Shown here piece after piece: positions 4,296-50,734 of a DNA stretch of 62,314 nucleotides. The position numbers and the translations under genes were made by a program. The stretch spans positions 1 through 62,314 of the forward strand of contig CAMLKG010000028.1 in assembly GCA_946480695.1 (NCBI GenBank), in the 5' to 3' direction. Below the pieces are notes generated by a model. The model saw only the letters and a program-made list of their open reading frames with translations. It was not told where the DNA came from and searched no databases. Source of the stretch: an uncultured Cellvibrio sp. (GTDB lineage Bacteria > Pseudomonadota > Gammaproteobacteria > Pseudomonadales > Cellvibrionaceae). Every line of letters starts with the position of its first letter. The stretch's first letter is position 1.

Positions 4296-4329
4296 GATGG
4301 TATTCCCAAGCGCCACTTGGAATACCATC
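4296..4329 (-). terminator. 3' hairpin at the end of the halogenase operon
   Basis: A 14-bp inverted repeat (GATGGTATTCC-AAG and its complement, one bulged base, 5-base loop) starts at the stop codon of the DUF6445 gene. No T run follows, so it may protect the 3' end of the mRNA or help a Rho-dependent stop rather than act as a classical terminator. Confidence 0.45.
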
Positions 4330-5014
4330 AAACTCCTATAAATGTATTTAGCGTTAATCTACCTTTGCGCGGATTCCGCTCAAATGCGAAATCGGAAGCG
4401 ATATTTCCCGAATGCAGGCAATTACATGGATAAACAATTATGCGATTGTACTCTGCCTCATATGACATAATTCTCTCAAACAAATAATTATCACCATTCA
4501 TATATGCGCGCGGGTAAGGACGAGACGCTAACTCATTTTTCAATGTTTCCGAATAGTGGGAAAATCGCGATTGGTTTACTGTTTCGTAACCGGTACTTCG
4601 ATGCCTGTACAAGGACGTTCCCCCAAACTCAGGCCCACACAAGTAATGTACGGCAGCTAGCTCGTACGCATTAAGAGAGTCAAAATGCGGCACACATTGG
4701 GTAACCTTTAATTGAGGGGGAGATGTGACGACCATTGAAAAATCTGATTGCACTGTCCTGACCATTGATTCCTTTAAAGAAAAAGTACTGTAAATTATTT
4801 CGTGCAAATATTGATGCAGAATCTGGACATATAAATCCGGAGCCGGAGATCTTACCCCCGGGTAAAAAGCATCCGCAGCATTGAATTGGCTATTTGAAAT
4901 ACAATATTCAATCAACTGCTCAGGCGCCTGCAGGAAATTGTCAACCACCAGCACCGGCGAACGCTCTTTACCCAAAAAGTCTACTCTGTATTTGAATTTT
5001 TTATGCAAGTCCAT
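4328..5014 (-). CDS. DUF6445 family protein, putative 2OG-Fe(II) oxygenase-like
   Basis: The protein has 228 residues and no signal peptide. The pattern fits the double-stranded beta-helix of 2-oxoglutarate/Fe(II) oxygenases: an H-x-D pair at H110/D112 (VPHFDS), a distal histidine H201 in CLHSGN, and arginines at 216/219 (NPRKGRLTLN) where the 2-oxoglutarate-binding Arg would sit. It resembles DUF6445 proteins, which occur next to tryptophan-halogenase homologues and TonB receptors in other proteobacteria. It is the last gene of the minus-strand operon, 18 bases after the third halogenase-like gene. The oxygenase assignment rests on motif spacing only; substrate and reaction are unknown. Confidence 0.7.
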   Translation of the reverse strand: MDLHKKFKYRVDFLGKERSPVLVVDNFLQAPEQLIEYCISNSQFNAADAFYPGVRSPAPDLYVQILHQYLHEIIYSTFSLKESMVRTVQSDFSMVVTSPPQLKVTQCVPHFDSLNAYELAAVHYLCGPEFGGTSLYRHRSTGYETVNQSRFSHYSETLKNELASRPYPRAYMNGDNYLFERIMSYEAEYNRIIVYPCNCLHSGNIASDFAFERNPRKGRLTLNTFIGV

Positions 5015-5032
5015 TGTTACCCACCAATTAAT

Positions 5033-6553
5033 TTAATTTTGGGCCTTGCAATGCTGTGCAATAAACTCTTCATGGCGAGGCAGATAATCCACCGCAGTAT
5101 CAAGAACTCGCTTAATGTGCGCCAGACGCCTGGCAAACTCGTCATCTGGCACAACATCTACAAGCGGATGATAACCATTTGGATATAGGCCTTGGCCTAA
5201 CATAACTTCTACCCAACTAATTTCATTAAACAATTCGGAATTAAACCGATGCACATGGGCATTTTCTTTAAATACTTCGATTTTTTGCATCAAACTATCA
5301 GGTATCGGCATTTGTCTACAGTAATTCCAAAATTCCGAATCACTCCTACTGGTAACTTTATAATGCAATATCAAAAAGTCGCGAATCCTTTCATACTCAA
5401 AGCCTACTTGCTCATTATAAAGGTCTATCTCTGCCTGACTTATCTGTTTTCTGGGAAACATCGACATTATCCTGGCTATCGCACTTTGCACCAGATGAAT
5501 GCTCGTAGACTCGAGAGGTTCCATAAAGCCTGATGATAGACCTACCGCCACACAATTCTTATGCCAGAATTTTTTTCTCCTACCCGTAATGAATTTAATT
5601 AACCTCGGCTCCGCCAACACTTCACCTTGGATATTGTTTAAGAGTGTATTTTTAGCTTCTTCGACATCAATGAAACGCCGCGAAAAAACATGCCCATTGC
5701 CCGTCCTATGTTGAAGTGGAATACGCCATTGCCATCCTGCTGTATGCGCAGTAGCTCTAGTATAGGAAGGTAAGGGGTCCAATTTCTGACTGGGTACAGC
5801 CCATGCGGTATCGCATGGCAACCAATGGGACCAATCCTCATATTCCACACCCAATGTTTTACCGATCAGCACGGCATGAAGCCCCGAGCAATCAATAAAA
5901 AAATCACCTTCGATTTCTTGACCATTTTCTAATTTCAGTGATGTGATATAACCAGTTTCTTTGTCCAGGTTTACATAAGAAATTTTACCCTCAATACGCT
6001 TCGCACCGAGCTTTTCCGAATACTCCCGCAAGTACCTTGCATAAAGCCCAGCGTCGAAGTGGTAGGCATAAGCGATGTTGGATAACGGTGAATTACCAGC
6101 ATCAATTGATCGCATAAACTTGTTTTGCCGGGAAGCTAACGTATTAAAACAATATTCACCAATATCTGCTGAACGGCCCTGCTTGTTTAATTTTAACCAG
6201 TAATGATAAAAAGGTATTGAATCCATATCATTACCCACACCACCAAATGCGTGGACATAGCTTTCGCCAACTTTTCCCCAATTAACAAATTCAATACCCA
6301 ACTTAAATGAACCTTGGGTTTTGCGAACAAAATCATTTTCGTCAATGTTAAGTGTTTGGTTAAAAACCTGAATTTGGGGAATAGTGGCTTCGCCAACACC
6401 AATAGTGCCAATATCATCGGATTCGATCAGCACCACTTTACAGAATTGATTTTTGAAATATTTGGAAAATGCAGCTGCCGCCATCCACCCTGCAGTACCC
6501 CCTCCAACTATTACCAAGGTTTTTACATTATCCAGATGACTGTTTTCATTCAT
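5033..6553 (-). CDS. Flavin-dependent halogenase of the tryptophan-halogenase family (copy A)
   Basis: A 506-residue cytoplasmic flavoprotein. It has the N-terminal FAD-binding VGGGTAGWM (16-24) and the GVGEATIP loop (52-59). K84 (GSFKLGIEF) aligns with the catalytic lysine K79 of PrnA, W274-Q-W276 with IP is the WxWxIP signature that discourages monooxygenation, and E348 lies in MEPLES. All residues expected of an active halogenase are present. Family members from Xanthomonas (Xcc halogenases) and BrvH are known to halogenate free indole and lie near TonB receptors. The native substrate of this type is unknown; there is no tryptophan-derived natural-product cluster around it. It follows the degenerate copy B by 17 bases. 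Confidence 0.88.
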   Translation of the reverse strand: MNENSHLDNVKTLVIVGGGTAGWMAAAAFSKYFKNQFCKVVLIESDDIGTIGVGEATIPQIQVFNQTLNIDENDFVRKTQGSFKLGIEFVNWGKVGESYVHAFGGVGNDMDSIPFYHYWLKLNKQGRSADIGEYCFNTLASRQNKFMRSIDAGNSPLSNIAYAYHFDAGLYARYLREYSEKLGAKRIEGKISYVNLDKETGYITSLKLENGQEIEGDFFIDCSGLHAVLIGKTLGVEYEDWSHWLPCDTAWAVPSQKLDPLPSYTRATAHTAGWQWRIPLQHRTGNGHVFSRRFIDVEEAKNTLLNNIQGEVLAEPRLIKFITGRRKKFWHKNCVAVGLSSGFMEPLESTSIHLVQSAIARIMSMFPRKQISQAEIDLYNEQVGFEYERIRDFLILHYKVTSRSDSEFWNYCRQMPIPDSLMQKIEVFKENAHVHRFNSELFNEISWVEVMLGQGLYPNGYHPLVDVVPDDEFARRLAHIKRVLDTAVDYLPRHEEFIAQHCKAQN

Positions 6554-6570
6554 AATTATTTTCTCTTAAG

Positions 6571-7929
6571 CTAGTCAGCCAAGGGAGCAAACTGTAGCTC
6601 CTTCAGCACTGAGTTTTCGACCTTGGCAATATGCTCTTTAATAGCTTGATCATTAACAAAAGAAGTCATAGGCTCGACATTTTCACATTTAAATCCCAAA
6701 CCTAACAACAACCATATTTGCCATTCTGTTTTATAAAATTCATTTTCGAATACGGGATACCTGCCGCGATGTTTAAATAGATTTCTTTTATATTCAGCCT
6801 GATCAGAAAGAACTATCCTTGGATTTCTTATATTATGCCTTTCAAATAATTCCTTTAAACATAATTGGCTAATGTCGCGCAAATTTTCGAATGCACTTTG
6901 TATTGCCCGATTAAATTCGTTAACAACTGAAGATGTGTCTGTTGGCGATGGGAAATATCGTAGCAAAAGCTTTATTGCTATCAGATTGATATCTATAGCA
7001 GAGAAGACTGGAGAATACATATTCGCCATTGCAGGCCCAAAATTCAAGTAGTTAGGTGACCTTGGTTTTTTGTGCACATATACATTCCCTGAATCTTGAC
7101 CCAGAAATTGATAAATACCCCGGACCGCAATGTTGCGATGAGATATTTCGCATAACCAGGATGATTCATCCAGCAACTTAATCTTATTAACTAATGTTGA
7201 AAGGCTGTTAGGTTTTTTTTCCTGTGACTTTAACCTAATAGGCAGGCTCGTAAACCAGCTTTCAAACGCTTGCTCATCTTCTACCAACCCAGGAACTGTA
7301 TTAATTAAGTAGTCGCTGCCATAAGGCGAATTAGACTCTCCAAAAATACAACCACGGTTTTCATCAACCCTCAATTTGATTATTTTTTCCTTATTTATCT
7401 CAACACCCATATTCTGTGACATGGATTTCAATAATTGCAAAAAGGCTTCTGTCTCGAAGGACCATGAAAACTCATAAGTTGAGTATATAGAATTGGGGTT
7501 TTGTGCAGGCTTTTTGAATCTTCCCACCAACACCGATGCAGAACCAATTGATAATTTATTTAAATCAACAGATGCATTTTTTTGCATATACCTCATCAAT
7601 ACTTGATGGGATTCAATTATACCCATTGAGGCTCCATATTGCCCCCAAACATGAAAAAATGGGTGCTCATTATCAAAAAGATACGCATTTCCTAGCTTGG
7701 GATGAAATCCTACCGAGCCCCCCAACACCTCAGGCGATACATTAATTGCCTTAAAAAAGTCATGAATTAAAGGCAATGGTGATTGTATATCCGCAGTATG
7801 TTCAGCATCTACTCCAGTATATAATGTGATTTTGGTATCCGTATGCTGTAATTGTTTGGCTACAAAAACGCATATCATCCACGCTGATAGCCCATTACCC
7901 ACTATAGAAATTTTTTTAAAGTTATTCAT
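6571..7929 (-). CDS. Degenerate flavin-dependent halogenase-like protein (copy B)
   Basis: The start at 7929 has a GGA Shine-Dalgarno-like sequence and overlaps the end of copy C by 8 bases; an upstream ATG at 7941 is possible. The 452-residue protein keeps a modified nucleotide-binding opening (IVGNGLSAWM) and a lysine, K78 in HPKLGNA, at the place of the catalytic lysine. The GVGEATIP loop is replaced by IQSPLPLI, WxWxIP by WLCEIS (W258), and the glutamate of the EPLES motif is absent (region GPAMANMYSP). The frame is intact and lies between two apparently active copies, so it is kept as a protein. A non-catalytic partner, a substrate-binding subunit or an altered activity are all possible; the sequence does not decide between them. 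Confidence 0.75.
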   Translation of the reverse strand: MNNFKKISIVGNGLSAWMICVFVAKQLQHTDTKITLYTGVDAEHTADIQSPLPLIHDFFKAINVSPEVLGGSVGFHPKLGNAYLFDNEHPFFHVWGQYGASMGIIESHQVLMRYMQKNASVDLNKLSIGSASVLVGRFKKPAQNPNSIYSTYEFSWSFETEAFLQLLKSMSQNMGVEINKEKIIKLRVDENRGCIFGESNSPYGSDYLINTVPGLVEDEQAFESWFTSLPIRLKSQEKKPNSLSTLVNKIKLLDESSWLCEISHRNIAVRGIYQFLGQDSGNVYVHKKPRSPNYLNFGPAMANMYSPVFSAIDINLIAIKLLLRYFPSPTDTSSVVNEFNRAIQSAFENLRDISQLCLKELFERHNIRNPRIVLSDQAEYKRNLFKHRGRYPVFENEFYKTEWQIWLLLGLGFKCENVEPMTSFVNDQAIKEHIAKVENSVLKELQFAPLAD

Positions 7930-9448
7930 TTCTAATTCCATATAAACTCATGCGAGGAGCAGGTGGACATCCACGAAAATCCATTTTCTGAGAGTCGATC
8001 TGGCTAACAACCTGTTTTAAGTGTACCGGCATTTCCTTTAAAAGCTTGATTGCCTTCTGAATTTTGGGAGGCGTAAGCCTTGGATCGAGATTATCGGGAA
8101 ACAAGCCTTGTCCGAAGTAGATAGCAAGCCAACTCGGAGGCATGAATAGCCCCGAGTCATATTCCACAACTTGAGAAGTCGCACTAAAAATATCGATTTT
8201 TTCTTGAAGGCTGTCTGGAAGTGCCATATTTGCACAGTACTGCCAAAAATCTTCAGTGCGTTGATTTAACGCATAATGAAGAATAATAAAATCCCTGACT
8301 TTTAAATATTCGTTTTCCATTTGCCGGTTAAACTCTTTTGCCTCGATCGAATAACCTTTATTATCAATCGGCAACAGTTCCAAAAGCTTTAATATCGCAA
8401 CTTCAATTAGATATATGCTTGTTGACTCAAGCGGCTCAAGGAATCCACAAGCCAAACCTATTGCAACGCAATTTTTCTCCCAGGTTTTTTTTCGGATACC
8501 TGCCTCAAATTTGATTAATATCGGATCCCTTAAAATTTCCTCTGAAAAGTTATTGTTTAATTCATCCAGGGCTTCATCCCGACTGGTAAACTCCGAAGAA
8601 AAAACATGCCCATTTCCGATTCTATGCACCAATGGAATCCGCCAACACCATCCTGCTTTTTTTGCAGATGAGTGTGTATAAGGTTGCATTACTGAACCAC
8701 CTGCTGCAGGAACAGCCAAGGCCGTGTCACACGGCAACCATTTTTTCCAGCTTTCGAACTCAACACCCAATTCCTGGCCCAAAAGCCTTGAGCGAAACCC
8801 ACTACAATCTATAAACAAATTGCCTTCTATGCATTGTCCTGATACCAGCCTTAAGGATTCTATAAATCCTGTTTCCTGGTTTTTAGCGACTGAGGTAACT
8901 TCGCCCTCTATTCTTATAACACCACGAGCTTCAGCGTAGGATCTAAGAAGCTTTGCATATGCAGTTGCATCTATATGGTAAGCATATGAAAAAGTGGATA
9001 ACACATCATCAGGATCAGATGATGGGTAGATGAATTTTTCCTCACGGGCCAAAACATTTGCCATAGAAAATAAATCAAATGGCTCAATATCCGCACCCGA
9101 CTTTTTGGCACCCAACCAATAATGATGGAATCCCAGGCCATTTATAGGAAAACCATGATTACCAAAAGGGTGATAATAATCACTTTTCGAATTACCCCAC
9201 CCACTGAATCGAATACCCAACTTATAAGTAGCATTCACTGCCCGCATAAAATCTGGCTCTTCTATGCCAAGCAAATCGTTAAATACCCTGATATGCGGAA
9301 TTGTTGCTTCGCCTACACCCACAGTTCCTATTGAGTCAGACTCAATCAGGGTTATCTGCGCATATGTCGAATCGATAAATCGCGCTAATGCTGCGGCGGT
9401 CATCCAACCTGCTGTTCCACCTCCCAAAATGACATATTTTTTTATCAT
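7922..9448 (-). CDS. Flavin-dependent halogenase of the tryptophan-halogenase family (copy C)
   Basis: The start chosen is ATG 9448, preceded by GAGG seven bases upstream; a TTG 21 bases earlier would add seven residues and begin inside the terminator stem region. The 508-residue protein has the FAD motif LGGGTAGWM, the GVGEATIP loop, K76 (ATYKLGIRF) at the PrnA K79 position, W267-C-W269 with IP, and E341 in LEPLES, so it should be catalytically competent. It is the first gene after the TonB receptor and is separated from it by an intrinsic terminator. Copies A and C are clearly paralogous but diverged, which suggests different substrates or positions rather than recent duplication. Confidence 0.88.
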   Translation of the reverse strand: MIKKYVILGGGTAGWMTAAALARFIDSTYAQITLIESDSIGTVGVGEATIPHIRVFNDLLGIEEPDFMRAVNATYKLGIRFSGWGNSKSDYYHPFGNHGFPINGLGFHHYWLGAKKSGADIEPFDLFSMANVLAREEKFIYPSSDPDDVLSTFSYAYHIDATAYAKLLRSYAEARGVIRIEGEVTSVAKNQETGFIESLRLVSGQCIEGNLFIDCSGFRSRLLGQELGVEFESWKKWLPCDTALAVPAAGGSVMQPYTHSSAKKAGWCWRIPLVHRIGNGHVFSSEFTSRDEALDELNNNFSEEILRDPILIKFEAGIRKKTWEKNCVAIGLACGFLEPLESTSIYLIEVAILKLLELLPIDNKGYSIEAKEFNRQMENEYLKVRDFIILHYALNQRTEDFWQYCANMALPDSLQEKIDIFSATSQVVEYDSGLFMPPSWLAIYFGQGLFPDNLDPRLTPPKIQKAIKLLKEMPVHLKQVVSQIDSQKMDFRGCPPAPRMSLYGIRNE

Positions 9449-9467
9449 TGTTGCCTCATGTTTGTTC

Positions 9468-9498
9468 AAAAAAAAAGCGCGCCTTAGCGCGCTTTTTT
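9468..9498 (-). terminator. Intrinsic terminator between the TonB receptor and halogenase genes
   Basis: GCGCGC / TAAG / GCGCGC, flanked by A6 and T9 runs, lies 20 bases past the TonB receptor stop and 20 bases before the first halogenase ATG. It should stop most receptor transcripts. The flanking runs make it symmetrical, so it could work in either direction. Confidence 0.88.
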
Positions 9499-9519
9499 AA
9501 CCATCTAACATAACAGCGA

Positions 9520-12500
9520 TTAGAAAGTTGCTCTTACAACAAAGGTATAACGAGTATCATCCACGAACCAGGTACGTGGCACCTTCATATTTGCATCAAT
9601 CTTCGAGAAGGTGCGTGTTTCGGTGTTCAACAAGTTAACCGCCTGGAGGCCCACCTTAATATTGTCAGTGACATTATAGAAAGCTGATGCATCCAAATAC
9701 CCTTGGTCATCGTTATACACTGGCAAGCCAGTAATTACATCACGTGACGTCAGGAGATATTCAGAGCGCCAGTTATACGCCAGACGTAAAGCCCAATCGT
9801 ACTTCTCATACATCATCGCGAAGTTCGCGGTGTGATCAGACTGACCTTGCAACCCTATATCACCCAGGGAAACAAAATCAGAGGCCGGAGTACCTGAACC
9901 AGCATTCAAGTTGGAGTTAGGAACACCCTCAGCCTTAATGTATGAGTAGTTAGCCTGAACACCAAAACCATCAAACGGAGAAGGCAACATATCATAGAAC
10001 TGCTGATATGCCACTTCGAAGCCCTTCATTGTACCGTCACCGCCATTTTGCGGACCGGCGATAGCAACAGTTTGTGTTACACCGCTGACGGGGTTGGTGA
10101 ATTCGCGCGCATAGGCACCATTGATAAAGAAATTAGACAGGTCTTTGTAGAACAAAGATACAGTCATAGAACCAGCTTTCGCAAAATACCATTCCCAAGA
10201 CGCATCATACTGGATGGATTCCATTGGCATCAGGAGTGGGTTACCTGACGAACCTTGCCAACCCATAAAGTTAACGCTATTTCCATCAACAATACGTTGT
10301 TCGTTGATTGCCGTACCGTCAGCCCCAAGGAACACCGGCATGCCCGCATCATTTAATAGAGCCCCATCAGGTGCAGAACTGTAATCCCCACATGGAACTT
10401 GCACTGTACCACTCATACATTCTGAACCATTTTTCACCGTTGCAGGCAGCCCAGATGGATGAGGCACACCATCAACCACAGGGGTTAATGGATGGGGATT
10501 AGTTGGACCCCAATAAGGTGCTTTAAATGTATAAGTTGACCCTTCAGCGGTACCAATACTAACGTAATTTCTTAAATCACCAATATCCGGATATGCCAAA
10601 GCTTTTGATACCGCAAAACGAAGGATATGATCATCCGTTACGTTAACTTTCAAATTGACACTCGGCAACACATCATCAACGGTCCGCTTGGCGCTATTTG
10701 GAGAGTAAATGCCATTGGCAAATTCATACACTTCGTTAGGCAAGAAGTTATTAGAAGACCCCAAAAATTCGTTACTCTCGTTTACGTCAAACAAGTCATA
10801 ATCTGCTGGATTAACATTCTTGGGATCCCAATTGGCAGGCAACAGATTACTTCTAGTCAGCTGAGGATAAGTTGTAAAGCCCTCAGTCTCGTTGGTTACA
10901 CGCACATAACGGACACCAATGTTACCGCTGGTTGGCAAGCCAGCCAATTCTGTTTCAAAATCCAGGCGCACATAAGCGGCAGTATTGGTTTCAGTAGTGG
11001 TGTTGATTTCCCCATCCAGGAAAAAACCATTTAAATCATCACGTTTAACGCAAGCAGAGCCATCCCACTCAGTTCTTTGATCCGCAGGACGCCATTCACT
11101 ATTGCAATCATCAGAGTTTTCGACACTGTACATACCTGCAAAATAGGAACCCCAATTTCTGTACTGCTTAGTTAACTCGTCACTTGGATGGATAACTTTA
11201 TTGCCAGCCCCTTGAATATCCACTACACCGCCGCGGTAGAAATCACTCCAATCAAGCAATTGGTATGCATCCCCGGTAAAAGATGGATCGAGAGAAGTCT
11301 CATCCAACCACTCGGGATTATTCCATAGCGGTCCCAAACGATCCCAGTTATAGGCAGAATTACGCACTGTTTGTTCACGCTCAGCCGCACGAACACCCGC
11401 TTTCACACTGGTGAAAAAACCATCCAACTCGTAAGTACCGTCAAGACGAATCGCATCTGATTGACCTTCGCTACGCTCGTAGTGATCCATAGCAGCGTTA
11501 TACAAGTAGGAACTTTCCGTAGTGAAATATTCATCTCCCGTATTAAACTCTGTGCTTGCTGGCGCAAAAGACCAGGGATTCATAACTGTTACGGCGGGCT
11601 TGCCTCTTAAGTCAGCATCCATAATTGCCCAAGTCATAAACATTAGGGTTACATCGTCATCTTTTGTTTCAGCTTTGATATGTTGCAAATCCGCTGATAG
11701 CTCCAATTTATCAGTAGGAGTCCACTTCAAATTAAAGCCAAAATCATCGATGACTGTATTAGTTTCTTTATAACGGTTATCAGTTTGGAATCTGTGGCCA
11801 AAAACCGGAACTACAGGATTACTCCAACTGGCATTATTAGGAACGCGGTTATTATCGTTACTACGCCAACCATCCTGCATATGCGCCAATGAACCATTCA
11901 GGAATACCCCCCTTTCATCGAATTCATATTGCTCACCTGGCGCACCATAAGTGGTGCCCGTGTTGAAGTCCATTTGGCTCTTAATCGCATTTTCAGTCCA
12001 AGCCAGGGTTGCATCAGAGCGCATGAATTGGAAGGTCGCCAATAAATTTTCGTCACTGCTCTCCCATTGGGTCGCCAAAGCAATACCGGTACGGTCACGA
12101 GTATCTGTTTTCATAAACATATTCATGCCGTTAGGAACCAAAACACCTTGAGTTCCTATATCTGTTTCAGGATTGAGCGGAGATGTGCCACTGTTAGGAC
12201 CACCAGTAACTAAGGTGCCATCGTAGGTATAGGGAGTAGTGACGTATCCAAAACCGGGGAAAACAGTATTATTTTCGGCACCGATACGTGGAGTCAGCCT
12301 CCGGAATTCGTAACGGTCGATCTGAACACCATGAGAACTTGCTTCAAGATTAGAATCCGAGGCATTGAATAGGAAACCAAATTCCCCTGCAGAAGTTTCC
12401 CAACGATCACTGAACAAAAATGACACAGTTGGAGTCAGTTCTTCGGTCATATCTGCGTAAGTACCATCAGCAGAGAATGAAAATACACGACCATCCTGAT

Positions 12501-13059
12501 CAAATGGTTTGCGAGTACGCAGGCTCACTGTTCCCGAGATACCACCTTCAATCATGTCGGCGGTCTGGTTTTTATATACGTCCACACCGGCCATCAATTC
12601 CGGCGGCACGTCCTGGAAACTTAAACCACGGCCAGAGTTAGCCGTAAATGAATCACGACCGTTAAATTCGGAACGGGTTTGTGACATACCCCGGATCACA
12701 GCACCCGAACCTTCCACACCTTTATGGTCAGGGTCGTTTGCAGCCGCGAAACGATCAATAGATACGCCAGGGACGCGCTGCATTGCTTCCAACACGCTAC
12801 GATCCGGAAGCGCGCCTATATCGTCAGCAGAAATGGCATCTACAAATGTAGCGGAATTTCGCTTGATCTCCTGCGCATTTTGCAAGTCAGCGCGCATCCC
12901 GGTAACTACCACTTCTTCTACATCATTAGTGTCTTCTGTAGCGGTATCTTGTGCAAATGAAGGCGCGGAAAGGGCCATGATGCACATTGCTAACATCGAT
13001 TTTTTAAACTTGATGCCCTGTAGTTGTGGTGCGGTTTTGTCGTTCTTATGGAAAACCAT
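9520..13059 (-). CDS. TonB-dependent receptor, large Xanthomonas-Caulobacter type
   Basis: A 1179-residue outer-membrane transporter. Residues 1-37 form a signal peptide ending APSFAQ, followed by a TonB box (EEVVVTGMR, about 48-56). The plug domain comes next (ALPDRSVLEAMQRVPGVSIDR ...) and then a long 22-strand-type barrel ending in the aromatic YTFVVRATF. The length and plug wording match the large receptors that proteobacteria such as Caulobacter and Xanthomonas use for oligosaccharides and other bulky nutrients. No N-terminal sigma-regulator signalling domain is visible. The downstream halogenase-DUF6445 genes recur beside such receptors elsewhere, so its ligand may be chemically linked to their substrate. 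The ligand itself is not predictable. Confidence 0.93.
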   Translation of the reverse strand: MVFHKNDKTAPQLQGIKFKKSMLAMCIMALSAPSFAQDTATEDTNDVEEVVVTGMRADLQNAQEIKRNSATFVDAISADDIGALPDRSVLEAMQRVPGVSIDRFAAANDPDHKGVEGSGAVIRGMSQTRSEFNGRDSFTANSGRGLSFQDVPPELMAGVDVYKNQTADMIEGGISGTVSLRTRKPFDQDGRVFSFSADGTYADMTEELTPTVSFLFSDRWETSAGEFGFLFNASDSNLEASSHGVQIDRYEFRRLTPRIGAENNTVFPGFGYVTTPYTYDGTLVTGGPNSGTSPLNPETDIGTQGVLVPNGMNMFMKTDTRDRTGIALATQWESSDENLLATFQFMRSDATLAWTENAIKSQMDFNTGTTYGAPGEQYEFDERGVFLNGSLAHMQDGWRSNDNNRVPNNASWSNPVVPVFGHRFQTDNRYKETNTVIDDFGFNLKWTPTDKLELSADLQHIKAETKDDDVTLMFMTWAIMDADLRGKPAVTVMNPWSFAPASTEFNTGDEYFTTESSYLYNAAMDHYERSEGQSDAIRLDGTYELDGFFTSVKAGVRAAEREQTVRNSAYNWDRLGPLWNNPEWLDETSLDPSFTGDAYQLLDWSDFYRGGVVDIQGAGNKVIHPSDELTKQYRNWGSYFAGMYSVENSDDCNSEWRPADQRTEWDGSACVKRDDLNGFFLDGEINTTTETNTAAYVRLDFETELAGLPTSGNIGVRYVRVTNETEGFTTYPQLTRSNLLPANWDPKNVNPADYDLFDVNESNEFLGSSNNFLPNEVYEFANGIYSPNSAKRTVDDVLPSVNLKVNVTDDHILRFAVSKALAYPDIGDLRNYVSIGTAEGSTYTFKAPYWGPTNPHPLTPVVDGVPHPSGLPATVKNGSECMSGTVQVPCGDYSSAPDGALLNDAGMPVFLGADGTAINEQRIVDGNSVNFMGWQGSSGNPLLMPMESIQYDASWEWYFAKAGSMTVSLFYKDLSNFFINGAYAREFTNPVSGVTQTVAIAGPQNGGDGTMKGFEVAYQQFYDMLPSPFDGFGVQANYSYIKAEGVPNSNLNAGSGTPASDFVSLGDIGLQGQSDHTANFAMMYEKYDWALRLAYNWRSEYLLTSRDVITGLPVYNDDQGYLDASAFYNVTDNIKVGLQAVNLLNTETRTFSKIDANMKVPRTWFVDDTRYTFVVRATF

Positions 13060-13206: not shown

Positions 13207-13236
13207 ATCCTAGCCCAGAAAATTAATATTTGTCAA
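13207..13236 (-). promoter_or_regulatory. Candidate sigma-70 promoter for the TonB receptor gene
   Basis: On the minus strand TTGACA (13236-13231) is followed after 18 bases by TAGGAT (13212-13207). It lies ~150 bases upstream of the receptor start codon in an AT-rich stretch. The -35 is perfect and the -10 matches 4 of 6 consensus bases. Confidence 0.5.
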
Positions 13237-46354: not shown

Positions 46355-48538
46355 TCAAACCCTGTTTCCGATCGGCAACCTGGTCACCGGTTTGCCGGTA
46401 GCGGCAAATAAGGCGTTAGCGACTGCACCCGCAATGGGTGGCAAGCCGGGCTCGCCCACGCCGGAAGGTGGCTCAGCAGAGGGAACAATATGCACTTCCA
46501 CCCTGGGCATGGAATCAATTCGCAGCGGGGTGTAAGTGTGATAATTGGTTTGCTCAACGACCCCGTTTTTTAAGGTGATGGCTTCGCCCAGTGCCGCGCT
46601 TAATCCCATCCCGAGCCCACCCTCCATTTGCGCGGCGATTACATCCGGGTTTACGGCTACCCCGCAATCGACCGCACAAACTACTCGCTCCACGTTGAAC
46701 GTTTTGTCCGCGTTCACTCGCACTTCGGCAATTTGCGCCACCCAGGTACCAAACGATTTATGCACAGCAATTCCGCGCGCAACTCCCGACGGAAGCGTTT
46801 TTCCCCAATTGGCCTTTTCCGCAACAAGGTTTAATACACCCAACGCACGCGGCTCATTGGCGAGCAATTCACGGCGGAAAATAACCGGATCTTTTTTTGC
46901 CGCTTTTGCAAGCTGATCAATAAATGTTTCCACGACAAAGGCATTACCGGAATGCCCTACCGAGCGCCACCAGAGGGTGGAAACTTTAATAGGCACCTCT
47001 GTGCCCTGCACTTGCAAGTTGGGAATCGCATAGTGCATATCTTCTATACCTTCCACCACAGTGCCGTCCACAGGCCCTTTCACAAAACCCTCAAAGGGTG
47101 TGCCACGTAAAATGGATTGCGCTGCTGCATGGTGTTCCCAGGCGAGAGCTTTACCATCGGGTGATACAGCACCACGAATATGATGGACCGCCATGGGGCG
47201 ATAGCGAGCATTGAGGATTTCATCTTCCCGCGTCCACACCATTTTTACAGCGCGGCCCGGGATTTGCCTGGCGATATGCGCTGCGTCCACCACATAATCG
47301 CTCGCGCAGGCGCGACGTCCGAAACTGCCGCCCGCATAGACCGAATTAATTTTTACCTGTTCCGGTTTCAAACCAGTCGCCTTGCCAACTTCTTGCTGGT
47401 CAATGGTTGGCATTTGGCTGGCAAACCACATTTCACACCGGTCCTTGTCCACTTTTACCACACAATTTAATGGCTCTATGGCCGCATGCGCGAGGTAGGG
47501 GATTTCGTAACTCGCTGCAATGATGTGTTCGGATTTTTTTAAGGTCGCTGGGGCATCGCCGATATTTTTAACGATATGCCCGGTTTTATTCGCCGCCTCA
47601 TGGCAAGCGGCAAACAGCGCATCGCTGCTGCGAGTTTCGCACGCGGACAAATCCCATTCGACAGATAACAATTTGCGCGCTTTATTCGCCGCCCAGAAAT
47701 TCTCCGCCACTACGGCAACACCGCGCGGAATTTCCACTACCGCGATGACCCCGGGTGATAACCTGGCTTTGGAAGCATCGACTTTTCTCACTTTGCCAAA
47801 CACCTGCGGAGGATAAGCTACCAACGCGGTCAGCATGCCGGGCAATTGGATGTCTTGTGTATAGATAGCCGTGCCGTTGGTTTTATCGGCACTGTCTTTG
47901 CGCGGAATTTTTTTGCCAACCAACTGAAAATCTTTAGGATCTTTTAAGGCCGGTTTTTGCGGAGTGGGTAGGCTCGCCGCTTTTGCAGCGAATGCTCCCA
48001 ATTCGCTGGAATGTTTTCCGTGCGTAATGACACCGTCTTTAATTTGTACTTCCGCTTGCGGCACTTTCCATTCTACAGCGGCAGCGGCCTGGAGCATTTC
48101 CCGCGCTGCCGCACCCGCGGTACGCAATTGCTGCCAGGAGTTAGCAATGGATGAGGAACCACCGGTGCCCTGCGTTGGTCCCCAGAATAAGTTGTTGTAA
48201 CGCGCGGCATCGGCTGGCGCAAATTCAAATTGAACCTGTTCCCAACGTGCACCCAGTTCTTCCGCAATGACCGTCGCTAACCCCGTGGTAACTCCCTGCC
48301 CCATATCCAGGTGCTTGATCACCACGGTGACTTTGTTATCGGGCGTAATTTTCAAAAAGGCATTAAATACCGGCGCATCTTCTGTAGTCGCCGCACTCAC
48401 AGAAGCGCTCAAACTTGCAACGCCACTGCCAATTAATAAACCTCCCGCGACACCCGCTGCGTGCAAAAACCGGCGGCGCGATAATTCCATAATGGAGTTT
48501 TTATCCATCTGCATAAAGTGTTTATCCAGGAAGTTCAT
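46355..48538 (-). CDS. Molybdenum hydroxylase large subunit (isoquinoline/aldehyde oxidoreductase type), Tat-exported
   Basis: The start at 48538 overlaps the 2Fe-2S subunit stop as TGATG. The 727-residue protein has a twin-arginine signal ([15 protein letters not shown]), so it should reach the periplasm folded with cofactor. It resembles the IorB/aldehyde-oxidoreductase group, with two Mo-binding domains and the catalytic glutamate in [13 protein letters not shown] near the end. Substrate could be an aldehyde or N-heterocycle; no FAD subunit is encoded, which fits this group. The usual cytochrome c partner is not adjacent, so the electron acceptor is not clear from the window. Confidence 0.88.
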
Positions 48539-49002
48539 CAGGCTTTCCCTCCGAGGTTTTCTGCCGCCTGGTGAATGGCGGTGCGAATGCGGTGATAGGT
48601 TGCACAGCGGCATAAGTTACCCGCCATGGCGGCATCAATTTGTTCATCGGTTGGCTTTTTATTGGTTTGCAATAATGCAGTGGCCGACATTATTTGCCCG
48701 GATTGGCAATAGCCGCATTGCACCACATCCAGATCGCGCCAGGCTTGCTGCACCGCCTTGAATGCGGGCGAATCCATACCCTCAATGGTTTGAATGCTCG
48801 CACCCGCCACCGCCGACAGCGGCAGGCTGCATGAGCGAACGGGCGTTCCGTTCATATGCACAGTGCAAGCGCCGCATAGCGCCATGCCACAACCGAGCTT
48901 GGTGCCTGTCATTTGTAATTCATCGCGCAATACCCACAGCAATGGGGTATCCGGGTCCAGGTCGAATTCCTGTTTTTTTCCGTTAATCGTTAATGAAATC
49001 AT
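48538..49002 (-). CDS. 2Fe-2S subunit of a molybdenum hydroxylase (IorA-type)
   Basis: A 154-residue subunit with two 2Fe-2S clusters: the plant-ferredoxin-like site ([16 protein letters not shown] ... C) and the CxxC-type site (CGYCQSGQ ... [12 protein letters not shown]). Electrons pass through these clusters from the molybdenum site. The ATG at 49002 has AGGAG upstream; a longer frame to 49092 has no such site. It is exported together with the large subunit, having no signal of its own. Confidence 0.93.
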
Positions 49003-49078
49003 GGTTAGGCTCCTTTGATAGGGCTTTAATAAATAAAAAATCTTCGGCTCGGTTGGAAAAAAGCTTATTAGAAAAATA

Positions 49079-49666
49079 TTACAGCGCTGCAAATTCGCGG
49101 TATAAATCCGCCGGGGTATCTACGTCGAATTCGGCGGCGGGCATATTCACTGCCAATACGTGTTCGGCATAATTAAATAACAATTGCTTCGCACCGCGAT
49201 CACCCACGCATTGGCGCAACTGGTTTTTAAATGCCGCCGGAAAAATCGCCGGCACACCCAGGGTATCAGCAAAACCAGCACAAACAATTTGCTCTGGGCT
49301 GGCTTTCCATAATCGATACAAATTTCGCAAATCCCCGGCGCTGACTTGGGGCTGGTCACCCAACAAAATCAATACTGGATTATCGTTGTCCAATTGGCGG
49401 GTACCGAACGCGAGTGAATATCCCATTCCCGATTGCCAACCATCAAAATACGCCAGTTCGAACGATGGATGCTTCAGCGTTGAACCATAAGCCTCTATCC
49501 GTCTATGGCTTGCACCGGTGACTATTACTATTCGCTGCGGTTCCAACGCATTTGCTGCGTGAATCGCGTGGGCAATTAACGGCTGCCCTTTATAATCTGC
49601 GATCATTTTGCAACTGCCAAATCGCGTTGCTGCGCCGGCGGCAAGAATTAAGCAATCAATCGACAT
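49079..49666 (-). CDS. MocA-like molybdopterin cytidylyltransferase
   Basis: A 195-residue nucleotidyltransferase of the MobA/MocA fold. The [16 protein letters not shown] signature, [13 protein letters not shown] and [12 protein letters not shown] fit MocA, which attaches CMP to molybdopterin to give the cofactor form used by the xanthine-oxidase family. Its position in this operon supports that role. The gap to xdhC is only 15 bases. Confidence 0.85.
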
Positions 49667-49681
49667 TGATATTCCGTAACG

Positions 49682-50734
49682 CTAGTTATTGATCATATTG
49701 GATAAAGTGGATGGATAATTTGTTGCAGCAACAGTACTTAAAGGCAACGCACTGCTGCCAAATAAACGGGCGTGGCATTCGGCCAATACCGATAACGCAA
49801 TACTTTCCGGTAAATCCCCACCCAGCGCTAACCCCATGGGCCCGGATACGGGATAACGCAAGTGCGTGTCGCTGAGCCCGGCCATGGTGAGTACCTCGGC
49901 TTTACGCGACGCCGGACCAAGCAAGCCAATATAGGGATTCATTAAATCGCGCGCTTGCAGGCAGCCAATCGCTTCTGCATCCAAACGCATGTTGTGATGC
50001 GCAACGACCACTGCATCCACTTGCTGTAAATAATTTGATGGAATCTCCGCAACCGGAAGTTCGAATATTGATATACCTTCTGGAAAGCTATCGCGTTTTT
50101 GCGGGGTTAACCGTTGGTCTGCCAGGGTTACTTGCCACCCCAGGGTAACCGCGAGCTGGCACAAGGGGATTAAATCCACACCATTTCCCAATATCAATAA
50201 ATGCGGCAAGGGATTGATCAGCGTGCTTAATGAATCCGCATGCAAATAACCAGGTTGGCGCAACGTGAAGTCGCGGGCGCAGGATAAGAAGTTTGCATCC
50301 GCTATCGCTATTTGCAGATTGAATTCACACGCCTGGTGTTGTTGCAAGCAGGAAAAAATATCCGGCAAATGGAGGAAATTGTTTTCGCTATTGCACGGAT
50401 GTAAAAGGATTTCTGCGACGCCGCCGCAACCGATTCCCAAACGCCAGGCAATATTGTCTTCATCAGTCGCGTCATAAACCACGCGGCGCGATTTTCCCAG
50501 CGCAATAACCTTGCGCGCTTGCAATAATAAATCCGATTCTATGCAGCCGCCGCTTAATAGGCCGAACTGGTGCCCGGTATCGCTCAGCAACATTAACGCA
50601 CCGGTTTTACGATACACCGAGCCACGCGTATTAATAACAGCGCCAAGCACCCAATTCGCCTGGTCCTTTAATGGCAACCAGCGCGACAACAGATGAAAGA
50701 AATGATTGGAGGTTTGATGGGACATATAGGGCAT
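49682..50734 (-). CDS. XdhC-family molybdenum cofactor insertion factor
   Basis: The protein has 350 residues (or 347 from an ATG three codons in). It has the XdhC N-terminal segment (GAVINTRGSVYRKTGALMLL, GLLSGGCIESDLL) and a Rossmann C-terminal domain (LLILGNGVDLIPLCQLA, AVVVAHHNMRLD, YIGLLGPASRK). XdhC proteins bind the Mo cofactor and load it, often sulfurated, into molybdenum hydroxylases. It is the first gene of the operon, so the accessory genes are transcribed ahead of the enzyme. Confidence 0.9.
   Translation of the reverse strand: MPYMSHQTSNHFFHLLSRWLPLKDQANWVLGAVINTRGSVYRKTGALMLLSDTGHQFGLLSGGCIESDLLLQARKVIALGKSRRVVYDATDEDNIAWRLGIGCGGVAEILLHPCNSENNFLHLPDIFSCLQQHQACEFNLQIAIADANFLSCARDFTLRQPGYLHADSLSTLINPLPHLLILGNGVDLIPLCQLAVTLGWQVTLADQRLTPQKRDSFPEGISIFELPVAEIPSNYLQQVDAVVVAHHNMRLDAEAIGCLQARDLMNPYIGLLGPASRKAEVLTMAGLSDTHLRYPVSGPMGLALGGDLPESIALSVLAECHARLFGSSALPLSTVAATNYPSTLSNMINN

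Follow-up and report, generated by a model that had tools for sequence, protein, structure and literature searches.

The natural substrate of BrvH-like flavin-dependent halogenases is an open question. A second halogenase gene adjoins brvH, and the active site of BrvH is open and was likened by its authors to that of MibH, a lanthipeptide Trp-5-halogenase in which the halogenase fold acts on tryptophan within a peptide (PMC5945002). QhpG, a halogenase-like flavoprotein, is encoded beside its protein substrate and acts before export (PMC7876137). The TonB-dependent receptor CciT requires its oxygenase partner (PMC12004947, PMC12004943). A word search of the texts of the papers on BrvH (PMC5945002), Xcc4156 (PMC7336383) and an mSystems halogenase (PMC8269204) did not return the word TonB. 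Here, we describe a locus in a 62,314-nucleotide stretch (the window) from an uncultured Cellvibrio sp. (GCA_946480695.1, contig CAMLKG010000028.1), in which the gene of a TonB-dependent receptor is followed by genes for a halogenase (A), a pseudo-halogenase (B), a second halogenase (C) and a DUF6445 protein. We regard as solid that these genes form a conserved receptor-linked cassette with a sandwiched pseudo-halogenase. The recurrence of the set points to the receptor, or its ligand, as the place to look for the substrate, receptor by receptor. Searches by title or abstract start, which left most subscription journals outside, found no literature on a receptor-halogenase link and no paper mentioning DUF6445.

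To define the set, 80 of 130 loci from a DUF6445 scan were kept, and the DUF6445 gene was recognised by open reading frame (ORF) picking in 77 of them (not in L025, L026 and L030; loci carry L numbers and genomes G numbers). Among the 56 loci with at least 8 kb on each side, both a halogenase and a receptor lie within 8 kb of DUF6445 in 43. Three have a halogenase only (including L018, whose receptor is further off), one has a receptor only, and nine have neither (L004, L011, L019, L021, L028, L036, L042, L061 and L067); the neighbours in these nine could reveal the substrate. The full receptor-A-B-C-DUF6445 set is present in 13 loci including the window, with two extra genes before DUF6445 in L018, and this order, with or without DUF6445, is found in Cellvibrio, Paraglaciecola, Rheinheimera, Alishewanella, Bowmanella and Neptunicella. 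Other recurrent sets are receptor-SapC-Cupin_8-halogenase-DUF6445, receptor-halogenase-SapC-DUF6445 and smaller ones (the SapC and Cupin_8 identities were confirmed on one representative each). The receptors mostly cluster by set type, the exceptions being L016 and L017, where the halogenase comes first and the receptors resemble those of SapC-first sets.

The 15 genomes behind the loci contain 7–31 PF04820 matches each, at a low curated cut-off and with some matches being gene pieces. Two genomes were fully mapped, with receptor matches below cut-off excluded (18 of 42 in G001, 20 of 35 in G009). In G001, 17 of 21 halogenase genes have a TonB-Xanth-Caul receptor no more than 10 kb away, and for 15 the nearest receptor is upstream on the same strand. 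The corresponding numbers for G009 are nine and eight of ten, the tenth gene being a 21-bit match. In a class-wide set of 185 genomes, nine have PF04820 (1e-40), eight have TIGR01782 (1e-90) and six have both (hypergeometric probability 4e-8, with G001, the centre of the set, included and kinship uncontrolled); DUF6445 is present in six, four of which have PF04820, while the two weakest do not. The association of receptor, halogenase and DUF6445 is far above chance, so the co-occurrence in related genomes that an earlier, sequence-only reading of the window had put forward for checking is borne out.

Two kinds of set carry additional enzymes. In Paraglaciecola hydrolytica (L018:6163-9942), two genes with lipoprotein-like starts (by eye) lie between halogenase C and DUF6445. 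One encodes an FG-GAP/ASPIC protein and the other a homologue of vanadium haloperoxidases (9l8x at E 3e-13), which brings a second, unrelated halogenation family into the same set. The sets of L003, L006 and L007 contain a Cupin_8 protein and a JmjC-like protein (Pfam on the L006 copy), with up to three oxygenase-like families behind one receptor.

Sequence motifs were compared among 112 halogenase-family proteins, fragments included, from the 80 DUF6445-centred loci plus the window. Both A and C keep GGGTAGW, GVGEATIP, the lysine of KLGI, WxWxIP and EPLESTSI. The catalytic residues are GGGTAGW from residue 9, K76, W267-x-W-x-IP and E341 in A, and GGG from residue 17, K84, W274-x-W-x-IP and E348 in C. 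With the GxGxxG signature, the lysine, WxWxIP, the EPLEST glutamate and a full-length PF04820 match, A and C are apparently competent flavin-dependent halogenases. Their nearest solved structures are BrvH, Xcc4156 and a Pseudoalteromonas enzyme. C has the lowest ratio of nonsynonymous to synonymous substitution rates (dN/dS) of the four genes in all four pairs compared. The halogenases of receptor-halogenase-SapC sets have altered motifs (GVGEGTWP, FKQG, WIWDIGL and EPLEASA, at L032, L034, L037, L044, L046, L049, L058, L062-L065 and others) and possibly a different chemistry.

The corresponding motif sites of B read GNGLSAWM, ADIQSPLP, PKLGNAY, SWLCEI and SPVFSAID. B has the fold of the halogenase family and retains K78, but lacks the GVGEAT flavin/halide motif, WxWxIP and the EPLEST glutamate. 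The same motifs are lost in the middle copies of all 13 three-halogenase loci. All 31 rows of the B alignment retain the catalytic lysine, but only three of the 13 middle copies of three-halogenase loci do so (window, L001 and L018). The length of B is conserved across 31 homologues, its dN/dS is 0.11–0.18 in four pairs (above A and C in each), and of the 20 distinct degenerate genes for which both neighbours could be seen, 18 are flanked by two active copies. Length, dN/dS and sandwiched position together argue that B is not debris; judged from sequence, it belongs to the set as a conserved component whose position hardly varies. The degeneracy assigned to this third copy by the sequence-only reading therefore stands, while the notion of a failed copy does not. 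A missing B-type partner could be a reason for an A-type enzyme to be nearly inactive, should that be seen when it is assayed alone. Two further genes deserve mention here: in G334 (C5:674705-676062) a halogenase match is split over frames and contains a TAG, a natural break in a copy that has weak family matches nearby, and L117:8897-9841 encodes a 314-residue protein with no Pfam match at 1e-5, located between two active halogenases behind a receptor.

All 31 aligned proteins share H110, D112, H201 and R219 of the DUF6445 protein, whose named relatives include several from Cellvibrio. Its structure model is confident (predicted local distance difference test score, pLDDT, 96), and the best structural matches are 2-oxoglutarate oxygenases. 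Foldseek ranks HygX first, followed by Tpa1 and PHD2, while VIA-align ranks OGFOD1 (15.3), a mimivirus lysyl hydroxylase (13.8), PasI (13.7), Tpa1 (13.6) and LH3 (13.2); since VIA-align re-examines the Foldseek list, folds outside that list stay possible. The model is a double-stranded beta-helix with HxD...H and a 2-oxoglutarate-binding arginine. The protein is thus predicted to be a putative Fe(II)/2-oxoglutarate oxygenase with a fold like that of 2-oxoglutarate hydroxylases. Many of the structural matches, though not all, presumably act on proteins, judging from entry titles and recall.

The features of the locus are listed below. The receptor scores 652 bits against TIGR01782 (TonB-Xanth-Caul; curated cut-off 310), carries the TonB plug (PF07715) and barrel (PF00593), and is 86% identical to the receptor of L001 (Cellvibrio sp. 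UBA8526). Its N-terminus is signal-peptide-like by eye and its C-terminal end is ...VVRATF. Pfam E values are 1.8e-76 for DUF6445, and 1.3e-193 (C), 7.8e-29 (B) and 3.2e-171 (A) for Trp_halogenase. The ATG at 7929 is favoured as the start of B because the methionine at that position is invariant in the 31-row alignment of homologues; with this start, A and B overlap by 8 bases, and gaps of 17 and 18 bases separate B from C and C from DUF6445. For A, the start codon is the ATG at 9448, which has a GAGG 5 nt ahead of it. An alternative TTG at 9469 is not used, since it sits inside the T-run of a terminator. The sequence-only reading had the five minus-strand genes with their families, this spacing, the two apparently competent halogenases and the H-x-D...H...R pattern of DUF6445 right. 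It had also joined all five genes into one locus; the receptor linkage is confirmed, but the reading had missed the terminator that splits the receptor from the enzymes.

Table. Features of the receptor-halogenase-DUF6445 locus in the window
Feature	Positions	Strand	Basis or remark
TonB-dependent receptor, TIGR01782 class, 1179 aa	9520..13059	minus	ORF and profile matches
Intrinsic terminator between receptor and enzymes, AAAAAAGCGCGC-TAAG-GCGCGCTTTTTT plus Ts	9468..9498	minus	
Halogenase A (PF04820), 508 aa from ATG	7922..9448	minus	complete catalytic motif set
Pseudo-halogenase B, 452 aa, halogenase fold	6571..7929	minus	catalytic motifs lost, K78 kept
Halogenase C (PF04820), 506 aa	5033..6553	minus	complete catalytic motif set
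DUF6445 protein, 228 aa, predicted Fe(II)/2-oxoglutarate oxygenase, prolyl/lysyl-hydroxylase type	4328..5014	minus	
Promoter-like site upstream of receptor	13207..13236	minus	10/12 consensus matches; weak

The promoter-like site is weak because the scan found 13 sites, compared to 23 in shuffled sequences. On the opposite strand, facing the set (window:1-4210), are the end of a GH115 gene, whose frame extends past the left edge of the window, a mannonate-dehydratase-like gene, a GH43 gene and a gene for an Exop_C-like protein. The same glucuronoxylan block faces the set in a more distant trio locus (L010:11767-19749). The gene upstream of the locus is one that we take, by eye, to be purA. Elsewhere in the window (46355-50734), a molybdenum-hydroxylase-like cluster is recognisable by eye, with two subunits and MobA-like and XdhC-like proteins.

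The terminator, a strong one of textbook form, was spotted by reading the sequence, and an automated terminator scan does not list the site. The 86-nt stretch bearing it (9440-9525) has a minimum free energy of −26.6 kcal/mol (z −4.3), with none of 200 shuffles as low. As only 22 nt separate the end of the hairpin from the ATG of A, a promoter would not fit there. Transcription probably reads through into A, unless it can start at a promoter within the receptor gene. Terminators are present in 57–58 of 81 receptor-to-enzyme gaps, compared to none of 74–75 enzyme-to-enzyme gaps, and the hairpin ends at most 45 nt from the likely start codon in 14 of 41 receptor-halogenase gaps. The terminator was considered as a mark of the enzyme cassette and rejected: gaps between a receptor and other genes are equally rich (10 of 14; other-to-other gaps, 68 of 386), so it is typical of receptor genes in general.

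From the directly observed gene set, motifs, predicted folds, conservation, order and terminator sequence, we tentatively favour a receptor-dedicated oxidative tailoring module, whose substrate would most likely be a polypeptide, first of all the receptor before export. The receptor gene would be transcribed and mostly terminated behind itself, with the enzymes made in smaller amounts by read-through, as suggested by the terminator and by the 22-nt distance from it to the start of A. A and the catalytically dead B would be translated as a coupled pair, probably forming one working unit in which B may serve as scaffold or substrate-binding partner of A. The cytoplasm, which holds FADH2 and 2-oxoglutarate, would be the site of action of A, C and DUF6445; no export signal was seen in these proteins by eye. 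There, C and A/B could halogenate or hydroxylate aromatic residues of the receptor chain before Sec export, and DUF6445 could hydroxylate one residue, which would tune the ligand-binding surface. A polypeptide substrate is suggested by analogy with the MibH-like open active site of BrvH and the precedent of QhpG, by the protein-hydroxylase-like fold predicted for DUF6445, and by the pairing of the enzymes with receptors of different subfamilies. In L022, L023, L024 and L052, the one or two neighbouring genes that were scanned include no carbohydrate gene, which we count in the same direction.

If the receptor chain is modified, a target residue might be conserved where the enzymes are linked. 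We fetched 26 further stretches with receptors of the window's subfamily (type I) from two families; two of them repeat L001 and L018. Type I receptors were detected at 1e-120 in at least 19 of 144 and at least 8 of 246 genomes, with two to four candidates scored per genome; the search missed G009, which is known to carry one. The resulting 39 type I receptors include 27 with an A-B pair, four with C only and eight without a halogenase.

The outcome weighs against the receptor as substrate. No receptor residue is conserved solely where enzymes are linked among the 39, a test that action in trans escapes. A column scan gave three weak positions (Y543, P1026 and P1028), which are kept in four of the eight halogenase-less receptors; label shuffles reached three positions in 2 of 200 trials, with clade structure uncontrolled, and no column tracks the enzymes once the C-only loci are added. 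Trp1089 had been suggested as the target of A because all of 13 linked receptors carried it and one locus without A had lost it, and the wider set refuted it. It is absent from four of 27 receptors with an A-B pair (Phe in L151; Ile in L152, L153 and L155), but kept in four of eight halogenase-less receptors (L154, L156, L158 and the L002 receptor 11681; Ala in L149; Leu in L150, L159 and L160) and in two of four C-only loci (L163 and L164; Ile in the L002 receptor 5073; Val in L169). Tryptophan content gives no better sign. Type I receptors have 19.7 Trp per 1000 residues, compared to 12.4–14.1 in other receptor groups, but the eight halogenase-less ones are equally rich (14.2–27.1, against a mean of 18.8 in the 27 linked), so this is a trait of the subfamily rather than of the linkage. 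Trp1097, considered as a common target, was rejected because it is also Trp in five of 17 unlinked receptors; it is Trp in 13 of 13 type I, 20 of 20 type II, 16 of 20 type III and 6 of 13 type IV receptors, and the four type III receptors with Gln at this site still carry halogenases. Further points on the same side are the existence of eight subfamily receptors without a halogenase in their operon, the four of 21 halogenase genes of G001 that have no receptor nearby, a GH3 gene directly behind the set in L051, the models listed by the CciO authors, all of them substrate models in the passage concerned (PMC12004947), and the small-molecule enzymes PasI, SnoN and HygX among the good structural matches of DUF6445. 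Five genomes with halogenase-less type I receptors hold 4–16 PF04820 matches each, so modification in trans may still occur.

The polypeptide model is ahead of tailoring of the ligand only by a small margin, and the latter is nearly as likely. It is possible that the enzymes act in the cytoplasm on an imported molecule, such as a plant-wall fragment bearing a phenolic or indolic group that they modify, or on a compound that its uptake requires. This would predict the failed scan for a target residue, and it fits the glucuronoxylan-breakdown genes facing the set in the window and L010, the GH3 gene of L051 and the models of the CciT/CciO authors. Receptor subfamilies mostly match cassette types, as expected if the ligand determines the enzymes. 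However, none of the five set genes encodes a catabolic enzyme or a transporter of the inner membrane, none of the few neighbouring genes scanned at L022, L023, L024 and L052 is a carbohydrate gene, halogenating a nutrient has no obvious benefit, and the many receptor-enzyme pairs per genome would each require an aromatic ligand of their own. It is unlikely that A and C are halogenase-like monooxygenases without halogenation in vivo, so that the set only hydroxylates. They retain the lysine, the EPLEST glutamate and WxWxIP, even though they weakly resemble QhpG and LodB, maturases that modify Trp (22.8–29 bits, far below cut-offs), and QhpG has a halogenase-like fold (PMC7876137). Still less probable is that the enzymes produce a diffusible halogenated compound, be it a signal, a toxin or an ionophore, for reimport by the receptor. 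Free indole is brominated by BrvH in vitro, but the activity is low, and indole is doubted as the natural substrate by the authors of that work (PMC5945002). The Paraglaciecola L018 operon also has its vanadium-haloperoxidase-like, lipoprotein-like gene; however, the ORFs of the window (nine genes scanned with Pfam, the rest judged by eye) include no recognised core genes of biosynthesis, and 7–31 family matches per genome, mostly receptor-adjacent in the two mapped genomes, are unlike a secondary-metabolite pathway. That B is a decaying duplicate without function is scarcely credible given its kept length and position, even with its catalytic motifs gone and its dN/dS above those of A and C.

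Returning to a polypeptide substrate, its most specific form is rather doubtful: a widespread, undescribed system of receptor-dedicated cytosolic halogenases, each A-type one paired with a substrate-presenting pseudo-halogenase, and a prolyl-hydroxylase-like DUF6445 enzyme. Together they would halogenate and hydroxylate TonB receptors, or else a partner protein, ahead of export. If true, there would be bacteria with halogenated outer-membrane proteins, and, should the substrate be a protein, halogenation would join the known modifications of bacterial surface proteins. The set in any case offers a conserved pseudo-enzyme within a halogenase set and a likely activity for DUF6445.

Compared to known systems, A and C are full-length homologues of BrvH (6frl; E 5e-143 for A, 1e-147 for C), and of Xcc4156 (6y1w), and they have all the motifs and the short substrate loop of BrvH. 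The sequence-only reading had taken it as established that BrvH and the Xcc enzymes lie near TonB receptors, for which the word search of the papers above gave no confirmation. The best match of C is the halogenase of Pseudoalteromonas sp. L11 (9luq; E 1.8e-162). In the portions of their reports available, BrvH and Xcc4156 were studied as single enzymes, whereas here three family members, the middle one inactive, and a DUF6445 protein stand behind a receptor. QhpG, LodB and GoxB are flavin maturases of peptidyl tryptophan; no quinone enzyme was recognised at this locus, and A and C score at most 27.2 bits against the QhpG equivalog of NCBIfam (cut-off 240) and at most 29 against that of LodB (cut-off 400). 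MibH belongs to a precursor-peptide system. Its structure (5uao) matches A with an E value of 3.3e-55; most of the other tryptophan halogenases listed match A more strongly. DUF6445 has the fold and the HxD...H...R layout in common with OGFOD1, Tpa1, PHD2 and lysyl hydroxylases, but differs from them in having no sequence match to solved structures at E up to 10. The pairing of a TonB-dependent receptor with a 2-oxoglutarate oxygenase, as predicted here, is also seen in CciT/CciO of Caulobacter, PiuA/PiuC and Fiu/YbiX.
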